A stretch of DNA of 60,900 bases from positions 1 to 60,900 of the forward strand of contig CANDMI010000013.1 in the NCBI GenBank assembly GCA_947385775.1, read 5' to 3'. Made by a program: the position numbers and the translations under genes. Source of the DNA: an uncultured Eubacterium sp. (GTDB lineage Bacteria; Bacillota; Clostridia; Lachnospirales; Lachnospiraceae). Within the stretch, counting starts at the first letter, position 1; every line of letters starts with the position of its first letter. Positions 4,534-60,900 of the stretch are shown here, one piece after another. Under the pieces are notes generated by a model. The model saw nothing but the letters and a program-made list of their open reading frames with translations, had not been told where the DNA came from and searched no databases.

Positions 4534-5418
4534 ATGGCAATTTTTAAAGGGGCGGGCGTCGCGATCGTTACGCCGATGAAAGACAATCTGGATGTAAATT
4601 ATGATAAACTGGAAGAGCTGGTGAACGAGCAGATCGCAGGCGGGACCGACGCGATCATTATTACCGGGACTACCGGCGAAGCGTCTACGATGACGGAGGA
4701 GGAGCATTTAGACGTGATACGCGCCTGCGTGGATTTTACCAAGCATCGGATACCGGTTATCGCGGGAACAGGATCAAACTGCACAAGGACAGCGGTCTAT
4801 TTATCACAGGAGGCGCAAAAGGCGGGCGCGGACGGCCTTTTGATTGTAACGCCGTACTACAATAAGGCGACGCAGCAGGGGCTGATCGCGCATTATACAA
4901 CGATCGCGGAATCGGTAAAGCTTCCGATCATTATGTATAATGTGCCGGGGCGTACGGGCTGCAACTTACTGCCGCAGACGGTGGCGCATTTGTTTCAAAA
5001 TGTGGAAAACATCGTCGGCTTAAAAGAAGCCACCGGGAATATCGCGCAGGCTTCTAAGACCATGGATCTAACGGACGGAAAGCTGGATATGTATTCTGGC
5101 GAGGATGGGATCATACTCCCGCTTCTAGCAATCGGCGCGCTGGGCGTGATCTCGGTATGGTCAAACGTTGCGCCGGCGGATGTGCACAACCTGTGCCAGA
5201 GCTTTTTTGACGGGGATTTAAAAACCGCAAGACAGCTGCAAAGAAAAGGGCTTTCCCTGGTAGACGCGTTGTTTTCCGAGGTGAATCCAATACCAGTGAA
5301 AAAGGCGCTGAATCTAATGGGGAAAGAAGCAGGCTCCCTGCGCCCGCCGCTTTGTGAGATGAGTAAAGAGGGGACGCAAAAATTAGAAGCCGCCATGAAA
5401 GAGTACGGCATTTTATAA
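4534..5418 (+). CDS. dapA: 4-hydroxy-tetrahydrodipicolinate synthase
   Basis: Condenses pyruvate and L-aspartate-4-semialdehyde, the first committed step of the lysine/diaminopimelate branch. The start MAIFKGAGVAIVTPM is chosen because AGGAGG sits 8 bp upstream; an upstream in-frame ATG at 4495 has no such site. The 294-residue TIM barrel shows TGTTGEASTMTEEEH (substrate loop), MYNVPGRTGCN with the proton-relay tyrosine, and VGLKEATGN with the Schiff-base lysine at residue 164. dapB follows 47 bp downstream, so the pair probably forms an operon supplying meso-diaminopimelate and lysine. No lysine riboswitch was recognised. Confidence 0.97.
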   Translation: MAIFKGAGVAIVTPMKDNLDVNYDKLEELVNEQIAGGTDAIIITGTTGEASTMTEEEHLDVIRACVDFTKHRIPVIAGTGSNCTRTAVYLSQEAQKAGADGLLIVTPYYNKATQQGLIAHYTTIAESVKLPIIMYNVPGRTGCNLLPQTVAHLFQNVENIVGLKEATGNIAQASKTMDLTDGKLDMYSGEDGIILPLLAIGALGVISVWSNVAPADVHNLCQSFFDGDLKTARQLQRKGLSLVDALFSEVNPIPVKKALNLMGKEAGSLRPPLCEMSKEGTQKLEAAMKEYGIL

Positions 5419-13333: not shown

Positions 13334-13849
13334 TCAGAGCCCATAAGTCAGCATTAATTGTTTCCGAAAATCTTTGTCTTTTGTAGAACGTTCTAAATCG
13401 TCAAAGCGTTTGTCCTGTATCAGAAAAGCATATAAATTGTTCAGACGTTCTTCACCGCGTTCCTTGCCACGTTCCTCGCCACGTTTTTCCGCCTCTAAGA
13501 TTGTCTGGTTATAGTCCAAAAGCGCTTTTTCACGCGCTTCGTATTCCAGACGCTTTTCTTTGTCGAGACTGATGGCCTGTAGCCGCTCATACGCGGTTTC
13601 GATATATTGGTTTTTTTGCGCAAGCATATCAAACTCCTCCTTTTTCTCCGCATTGATAAACTTTGCCCAAAGCTCAATGTCGCTACAGTCTTTCCTTAGC
13701 TCTTTCGGCAGTTTTGGGAGTTCGATTAAATGGAACTCCATTTTTTCGGTATAAACAAAATTGCGCGTGTCTTCCCGGATATGGAAGCAGGAATAAAATT
13801 CTGTTTCATCCGGAAAAAGGTTGAAGTCCAGTATGCTGATACTGATACA
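13334..13849 (-). pseudogene. Rpn/PD-(D/E)XK transposase-like nuclease, C-terminal remnant
   Basis: From 13741 down an open frame encodes MEFHLIELPKLPKELRKD..., with a coiled, EKRGEERGKERGEER-rich tail typical of the Rpn (recombination-promoting nuclease) family. The same frame continues upstream without an ATG, reading ILDFNLFPDETEFYSCF and HIREDTRNFVYTEK, the conserved middle of these proteins, until a stop at 13850-13852. The N-terminal third with the catalytic PD-(D/E)XK residues is absent. The gene is therefore a truncated relic, although the part from 13741 could still be translated. Confidence 0.7.
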
Positions 13850-14070
13850 CTATACTACAAGAAAATCTTTTCTGAAACATCATGCCTATCTTATTTTCAT
13901 TATATCTAAATTTTTGCGAAATGTACAGATAGAAAACGCGTAATGTAGAGCTGATATTCATATACAAGTTACTTTTTACGGGGGCTCTGCCGTATATAAT
14001 GATAAATAATAGAGCGTTATCCGGCAGTTTGGTTTTGGGATAATTTGAAGGTTTGTGCTACCCGGACGCT

Positions 14071-14298
14071 GGAAGCAAGCCGGGGGCCTGTCCGGATGTT
14101 CCGGCTCCGGGATGTAAGAAGCCCTAAGCATTCTGTTTATAAGTTATCGATACCGGACGGACCGGGATTGCATCGCCATCCATGGCGGCAATCCCTTTTT
14201 CGGGCATCCCTGCCCGAAAATCCTGTTAAAAACAGAATGCTAAGGGCTTCTAACATCCCTGCGCAAGTCACATCCGAACAGGCCCCCGGCTTGCTTCC
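14071..14298. repeat. Structured hairpin unit A of copy 1
   Basis: The outer stem pairs 14071-14099 with 14270-14298 (29 bp, one mismatch). An internal loop (14100-14108 with 14260-14269) separates it from the middle stem, 14109-14137 with 14231-14259 (29 bp, two A-A mismatches). The apex holds two further hairpins: 14164-14171 with 14188-14195, enclosing CGCCATCCATGGCG, and TTTTCGGGCA (14197-14206) with TGCCCGAAAA (14211-14220). The shape resembles a multi-branched structured RNA. Confidence 0.85.
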
Positions 14299-14450
14299 GG
14301 CTGGTTATCAAAAATTTAAATGTTTCGAAACTGCCTGCCAATGACTTGTGCCTTTTCCAGTATAAAATTCCAAGAGTATACTGCATTTGCCATATGAGTT
14401 GAACCTGGCGCTGGTGGGGAAAAATAACGGAAAGCTTTTGAAAAACAGCC

Positions 14451-14678
14451 GGAAACAGACAGCAGACCCGTCCGGATGTGACTGTGCAGGGATGTTAGAA
14501 GTTCTTGGCATTCTGCTTTCCGTACAGGATTTTCGGGCAGGGATGCCCGAAAAAGGGGATTGCGCCATGGATGGCGGTCAATACCCGGTCCGTCCGGTAT
14601 AGAAACCTTTGCGCAGAATGCCTAGAACTTCTTATATCCCAAAGCCGGAACATCCGAACGGGACTGCTGCCTGTTTCC
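14451..14678. repeat. Structured hairpin unit B of copy 1
   Basis: The outer stem pairs 14451-14479 with 14650-14678. The unit has the same internal loop, middle stem and two apical hairpins as unit A but is inverted relative to it. Because A and B are inverted, the two units can also pair with each other, so the whole element is one giant palindrome. Unit B matches unit C at 60487-60714 in reverse complement. Confidence 0.85.
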
Positions 14679-14813
14679 AGCGTCCGGCAAACAAAAAATC
14701 CTATCATTTTGCCGAATAATTGCCTATTATTGATCGTTTATACCGCAGAGCCCCACCTCCCGTGAAAAGCAACATTCCTCCCAGCGTTCCCCACTCCAAC
14801 TTAAAATAAAAAG

Positions 14814-60395: not shown

Positions 60396-60900
60396 GTTGC
60401 TTTTCATGGGGTGGGGCTCTAATGTGTAAATCATCAATAATAGAGCGTTATTAGGCAAAATATTGGGAAAATTTTACCCGGACGCTGGAAACAGGCAGCA
60501 AGCCCGTCCGGATGTTCCGGCTCCGGGATATAAGAAGTTCTAGGCATTCTGTGCAAGGGTTTCAATGCCGGACGGATCGGGGATTGATCGCCATCCATGG
60601 CGCAATCCCCTTTTTCGGGCATCCCTGCCCGAAAATCCTGTACGGAAAACAGAATGCCAAGAACTTCTAACATCCCTGCACAGTCACATTCGGACGGGCC
60701 TGCTGCCTGTTTCCGGCTGTTTTTCATAAGCTTTCCGTTATGTTTCCAAACCAGCGCCATTTTTCATCCTATATAACAATTGCATATTTCTGGAATTTTA
60801 TACTGGCAAAAGGCACAAGTTATTGGCAGGCAGTTTTGAAACGTTTAAATTTTCGATAACCAGCCGGAAGCAAGCCGGGGGCCTGTCCCGATGTGACTTG
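60396..60900. repeat. Doubly palindromic non-coding element, copy 2 (cut by window end)
   Basis: This is the reverse complement of copy 1. Its start GTTGCTTTTCATGGGG, GGGGCTCTA and AATAATAG match the right end of copy 1. Unit C (60487-60714) has an outer stem pairing 60487-60515 with 60686-60714 and a middle stem pairing 60525-60552 with 60649-60676. The second unit begins at 60866 and runs off the window. About 300 bp are expected beyond 60900. The element end lies 50 bp upstream of the polymerase -35. Confidence 0.85.

Follow-up and report, generated by a model that had tools for sequence, protein, structure and literature searches.

TwoAYGGAY, a named RNA motif, at the tips of a palindromic and probably mobile element of Lachnospiraceae

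The locus studied here, positions 13968 to 14773 of a 60,900-nucleotide stretch of DNA from an uncultured Eubacterium sp. (hereafter the window), raises the question of whether its extensive base pairing belongs to a structured RNA, to a mobile DNA element, or to both. The initial annotation had described an interspersed 806-bp element with inverted ends and a pair of large hairpins, one on each strand, and we found the element present with this architecture, flanked by a fragment of a PDDEXK_2 gene on one side and by a chemotaxis-receptor gene on the other. Its inverted ends include a 16-nt arm pair that is 94% complementary. A second copy in opposite orientation does begin at 60396 as claimed, with only 505 bp of it visible because contig C13 ends at 60900. 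The features of the two copies are as follows.

13968..14773, no strand assigned: element copy 1, 806 bp, a divergent hairpin-unit pair bounded by terminal inverted repeats; BLAST copies in the genome start at the same end
13968..13996, + strand: left terminal repeat, GTTACTTTTTACGGGG...
14066..14304, - strand: hairpin unit A; RF01731 match at 14102-14266 (-), 113.2 bits
14174..14187, - strand: unit A tip hairpin 2, loop AUGGAU on the RNA strand (sequence and RF01731 alignment)
14197..14220, - strand: unit A tip hairpin 1, GGA in the loop on the RNA strand (sequence and RF01731 alignment)
14313..14341, - strand: promoter-like site TTGGCA-17-TAAATT, reading from the middle of the element into unit A (weakly supported)
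14445..14684, + strand: hairpin unit B; RF01731 match at 14483-14646 (+), 116.1 bits
14530..14553, + strand: unit B tip hairpin 1, loop AGGGAU (sequence and RF01731 alignment)
14562..14577, + strand: unit B tip hairpin 2, loop AUGGAU (sequence and RF01731 alignment)
14739..14773, - strand: right terminal repeat, GTTGCTTTTCACGGG... (- strand reading)
60396..60900, - strand: element copy 2, opposite orientation, 505 bp visible
60481..60720, - strand: hairpin unit C, counterpart of unit B; RF01731 match at 60526-60680 (-), 113.1 bits

Units A, B and C are full-length matches to Rfam family RF01731, TwoAYGGAY (113-116 bits against a threshold of 43; model positions 1-168 of 168), which rules out a new RNA family; since identity to an already named family was what the initial annotation itself had named as refutation, its proposal of a possible new structured RNA falls. 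The 2010 discovery paper, in its passage on this motif, rates an RNA nature as probable and a cis-regulatory role as improbable (PMC2864571), and a later account predicts that TwoAYGGAY binds CsrA and, in the part concerned with the motif, calls its function unknown (PMC4333381). Rfam gives RF01731 the type 'cis-regulatory' and places it in the same clan as CsrB (CL00106). A cis-regulatory RNA is expected at a constant position and on a constant strand relative to a gene; 37 copies in two genomes were found in mixed orientations. Nor are there merely two copies, although both in the window exist: scoring 150 of 185 candidates in the window's genome (3.98 Mb) gave at least 44 RF01731 matches at E ≤ 0.001, at least 41 of them over the family threshold, and many lie at contig ends, where an assembly-breaking repeat would be expected.

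Quantification of the pairing confirmed that the fold is exceptional, with unit A reaching -160.1 kcal/mol (z = -14.9; 0 of 200 shuffles equally good), while plain folding with 160-nt flanks yielded no useful outer stem. Comparing A with C, the initial annotation had counted nine compensatory pairs against two breaking ones and concluded that the folded form is selected. The covariation is real: across the 88 pairs shared in an A/B/C alignment we counted 13 double changes that are Watson-Crick in both units, the remaining differing pairs being 4 one-sided yet paired, 1 broken and 1 gap, so that the re-count stands at 13 versus 1. The proper counterpart of C, however, is B (92.4% identity, vs 80.9% to A), and between these two only 7 of the 88 pairs are unlike: one is compensated, one has a change on a single side that leaves it paired, four are broken by a change on a single side, and one is a double change with one broken. 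On 82 aligned matches, double changes were seen in 33 of 36 model pairs (539 cells vs 141 shuffled), 22 of these pairs being inner arm pairs, which call for the same caution as the arms below, in an alignment that was fitted to the model.

RNA-level selection tolerates G-U pairs and does not tolerate A-C mismatches, and this distinction separates the long arms of the units from their tips. In 143 copies with 9708 arm pairs, arm mismatches numbered 281 GU and 345 AC, a slight AC excess (two-sided p = 0.012). The same count in tRNAs gave 21 GU and 1 AC at fixed stem positions (19 tRNAs), or 20 and 0 when only program-bracketed pairs were used (16 tRNAs), both controls being biased in that the tRNA-finding program looks for pairing. 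Since arm mismatches show no wobble preference, arm pairing is not kept by sense-RNA selection. At the tip hairpins GU exceeded AC by 39 to 21 (p = 0.014; 11 to 4 for hairpin 1 alone), a modest excess in a count where hairpin 2 is difficult to align, and the contrast between tip and arms is significant (Fisher p = 0.004). Of 158 distinct units, 151 retain GGA in loop 1, and of the 155 in which hairpin 2 was found, 134 retain it in loop 2. RNA-type selection is thus supported only for the tip hairpins and their GGA loops; the claim that the folded form is selected holds there and fails for the arms. For the wobble test we set aside matches cut by contig ends, a weak set of units without GGA, L108, L111, L235, L039 and second-strand duplicates, and then matches with less than 60 nt of flank, duplicates and arm-alignment scores below 40, which left the 143 copies; the 158-unit loop set has L108, L111 and one L039 unit restored. 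The weak set itself comprises about 14 loci in the window's genome (L039-L050 and L066, e.g., C15:29628-30331; ~40-58 bits), mostly divergent pairs with conserved outer stems, a CGTCC foot and, by eye, tip loops without GGA, indicating that the GGA motif is not required for high copy number.

What the arms do conserve is their match to each other. In Lachnospiraceae S10_Bin3 (G315), the two arms of a copy match as reverse complements at a median of 94.3%, whereas arms of different copies match at 78.6% (7 of 8 copies, L137 dropped). In Lachnospiraceae bacterium 28-4 (G409), the corresponding values are 88.6% within a copy (range 70.6-94.9) and 59.6% between copies, against 52.9% in a shuffled control and 87.4% for the tip between copies (8 of 16 units, those with both terminal repeats recognised). 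In the same seven G315 copies, mirroring in both arms was seen for 74% of the substitutions and for 62% of the gap columns, compared with 0-9% when right arms were dealt to other copies, and two of them lack 8 and 11 alignment columns, respectively, each in both arms. Both arms of a copy therefore change jointly, indels included, and as a pattern this is strong. We infer, with moderate confidence as to the cause, that a DNA-level process in which one arm is copied from its partner fits these data better than RNA selection. Template switching, described in the pertinent part of PMC8794818 as making and repairing RNA hairpins with compensatory multi-base changes that need no G-U intermediates, is the best-fitting known mechanism; mirrored arms would likewise be expected if a transposase imposed some selection for palindromic DNA.

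The evidence that the carrier moves comes mainly from relatives. The terminal end GTTRCTTTTCAYGG has 33 exact copies in the window's genome and 0 for the reversed control. There, the divergent hairpin-unit pair lies between GTTACTTTTCATGGGG-type ends, and G315 and G409 carry mostly a single hairpin of ~340-430 bp with ends CACGGAAATCAATTTT. With the geometry fixed by the terminal ends, 15 of 28 copies in G315 and G409 showed 9-bp target duplications (at least 7 of 9 flank matches), versus 6 of 756 mismatched flank pairs. These 28 were drawn from 32 copies, L323, L307, L308 and L317 being left out for want of a recognised end pair, and four of the 28, with 9-10 end mismatches and probably misplaced, were scored as misses. 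L323 has an 11-bp direct repeat by eye. With a looser test, duplications were scored at 9 of 17 G315 copies, where the control rate was 8.5%, and at 5 of 11 G122 copies, where it was 5.5%. For the window's own element type the one clean case is an 8-bp TACAGATC duplication at the C46 copy in the window's genome, and the flanks of the window copy show no target duplication. Among the matches listed from 12 other genomes of the genus, those flanks were never found side by side, and for want of a usable empty site we examined a G315 site instead: this site is filled in two genomes (G315 and G409) and without the element in two others (G411 and G412), the occupant in G409 being a TwoAYGGAY hairpin that has diverged strongly (45 bits to model R1) with the terminal repeat seen in G315. 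At the same site G410 (L300) and G415 (L303) carry other, unrelated hairpin DNA that R1 does not match, suggesting that the site is a hot spot for insertion.

Taken as tests of a MITE, the terminal inverted repeats are present and target-site duplications occur in G315 and G409, so that the alternative of a mobile element, which the initial annotation had also raised, is probably right. The case for a mobile carrier is strong in the relatives and, by descent, good for the window copy. G409 has many occurrences of the terminal pattern (93 vs 2 for the control), as does G415 (45 vs 4); in the same genus as these it is near background in G407 (7 vs 5) and low in G408 (10 vs 1) and G417 (4 vs 0). 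Autonomous partners were sought by eye: G315 has no end pair 1-3 kb apart at up to 1 mismatch, 28-4 has no end pair of transposase size among the matches listed at up to 2 mismatches, and the lists for the window's genome contained no transposase with element ends. The DNA between far-spaced divergent pairs (L088, L111, L040 and L036) holds ORFs, none transposase-like by eye. The element types have end sequences CACGGAAATC / GTTACTTTTC, and with different ends among subfamilies a single transposase cannot be assumed. The left neighbour of the window copy is a fragment of a PDDEXK_2 gene (nuclease/transposase family; 13334-13741), a relative of which is near the C99 copy; we rejected it as the mobiliser because its relatives occur near just one other copy examined (L026/L067). 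Short derivatives were seen as well: L319 (G315 C102), L318 (G315 C48) and L056 (window's genome, C52), of ~54, 166 and 214 bp, retain both terminal repeats and have mostly or wholly lost the RNA tip. At L054 (5747-5806; window's genome, C7), a 60-bp palindrome has only GTTACTTTTCACGG in common with the element end and lies next to a second short copy of that end at 4770.

Three other readings have to be set against this evidence. If the element were a structured or cis-regulatory RNA whose whole long stem is kept by RNA selection, its repeats being duplicated RNA genes, then the widespread double changes in the model pairs, the conserved loops and the extreme folding score would follow; the arm mismatches would nevertheless be expected to resemble those of tRNA stems, which they do not, and neither the mirrored 8- and 11-base indels, nor the target duplications, nor the even split of G122 copies relative to flanking genes (8 same-strand, 8 opposite) agrees with it, making this reading very unlikely. 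A mobile palindrome whose DNA hairpin is selected because a transposase needs it, without any arm copying, accounts for the strand-symmetric mismatches as well as for the terminal repeats and target duplications. On that account, however, it is hard to see why arms that between copies are nearly unrelated, close to the shuffled level, should be so well paired within each copy, and stepwise compensation explains poorly the large share of mirrored gap columns; we regard it as unlikely.

Were the element REP-like, mobilised by a tyrosine transposase of the RAYT/IS200 type and perhaps related to CGTC-tagged palindromes, it would have the hairpin form, the mostly intergenic position and the inverted dimers found here, and in several subfamilies CGTCC stands by eye just past the stem, as in the CGTC-tagged repeats treated in the relevant part of PMC3733652. 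The length of 340-806 bp, however, compares with 20-40 bp for the repeats in that account (PMC3733652). A REP moved by a RAYT would be a palindrome of that short size without target duplication, and the 9-bp duplications speak against such an origin, which we consider highly improbable. RAYT/IS200-type enzymes are not known to make target duplications. The judgement that the element is neither a REP nor a simple, featureless MITE was right.

The element is, in our reading, probably a non-autonomous, MITE-like DNA transposon of Lachnospiraceae with TwoAYGGAY (RF01731) as its cargo, DNA-level copying between its arms and a tip of predicted CsrA type; it is a known RNA in an unrecognised vehicle. 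One arm would be copied onto the other at the DNA level, by template switching at the palindrome or by fold-back synthesis during transposition; the tip would be transcribed and its paired GGA hairpin loops may bind a protein of the CsrA kind; and the element would in this way scatter CsrA-binding RNAs through the genome, the host tolerating or exploiting them. With a divergent layout, any transcript crossing the element from either side would contain one sense unit. In the region of the promoter-like site directed into unit A, such sites numbered 4 against 1.5 expected; this and the same region in sister copies are weak evidence for a promoter.

This reading sets the element apart from its closest relatives among known systems. 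The window units share sequence, structure and both AYGGAY loops with TwoAYGGAY RNA, which the discovery paper's passage treats as a candidate RNA motif only (PMC2864571), whereas here it caps a repeated hairpin that resembles a transposon and frequently occurs as a divergent pair. The likeness to CsrA-binding sponge RNAs (CsrB and RsmY; clan CL00106) lies in the paired GGA hairpin loops; unlike these, the present units occur as many dispersed copies in a mobile element, with two sites per unit, in Clostridia, and their binding is predicted. MITEs and mobile, structured repeats like the Bacillus cereus bcr1 (cited in PMC2267715) are likewise short, non-coding and hairpin-forming, with terminal repeats and target duplications, but the element here has a conserved, named RNA as cargo and arms private to each copy, and no autonomous partner was found. 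Template switching is described for RNA genes in the part of PMC8794818 that concerns us, and here would involve arms of ~75-115 bp that belong to a repeated mobile element and mirror each other's indels. In the open-access literature covered we found no report of TwoAYGGAY mobility.

The tip loops are mostly A-N-GGAU hexaloops with a C-G closing pair, the paired-loop arrangement of a CsrA sponge RNA, and resemble the E. coli CsrA consensus RUACARGGAUGU as quoted in the relevant part of PMC6692469. The window's genome has csrA, and the adjoining protein reads as a putative FliW. Its CsrA has L4 and R44, which we take to be RNA-contacting residues. Among genomes with RF01731, csrA was found in 62 of 65, versus 148 of 332 others, many of these genomes being incomplete and related; flagellin was found in 64 of the 65. 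Of seven flagellin-positive genomes negative for csrA, two have RF01731, about the same rate as with csrA (62 of 206), so that the co-occurrence is confounded with flagella and csrA is not singled out. Binding of CsrA by the TwoAYGGAY tip, predicted by others, is plausible. G349 has six csrA-like matches compared with one or two in most other genomes.

A more far-reaching picture, which we put forward tentatively, is that of a self-correcting palindromic transposon in which one arm rewrites the other each round, so that the arms drift as one while the terminal repeats and RNA tip stay constant; the tip would be a CsrA-binding module, and the transposon would spread and tune the host's dosage of CsrA sponge. 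If so, some of the covariation read as RNA selection in repeat-derived RNAs would be a footprint of DNA copying. The GU-versus-AC mismatch test, which separates RNA-level from DNA-level pairing, is applicable to other repeat-derived RNA families. TwoAYGGAY, on record since 2010 with no function assigned and typed 'cis-regulatory' in Rfam, thus seems to be carried about by a transposon; this changes where its function should be sought and is a caution against taking the genes around it for regulons. Dispersed CsrA-type sites would give a mobile element simple access to a global regulator in gut Lachnospiraceae.

Across the family, 65 of 397 genomes have an RF01731 match, and individual genomes, of which 38 positives and one negative were searched more fully, reach at least 50, these counts being lower bounds with up to 53 candidates scored per genome. 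All 26 pairs of units less than 600 nt apart, counted by eye, are divergent (15 in the window's genome, 4 in relatives, 6 at named loci and 1 more in 28-4; one G409 pair met in two tables was counted once), and at ~650-1110 nt apart four are divergent, one convergent and one tandem. Single units are common, with one match each in 20 G122 loci and 20 G315 loci. Simple ORF calling placed 35 of 37 examined copies in G122 and G315 between genes, and 9 of 17 G315 copies between divergent genes. Spread by phages or viruses was rejected, as none of six pattern hits on viral contigs was confirmed by model R1; seven matches titled as other phyla also went unconfirmed by R1 (63 scored of 80 listed, from at least 120 stretches), as did L174 and L176. 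At L314 (28-4) and at L112 and L124 (G122) the palindrome extends several bases beyond the terminal repeats into copy-private DNA, a picture that outward spread of arm copying, or insertion into a hairpin, would give.
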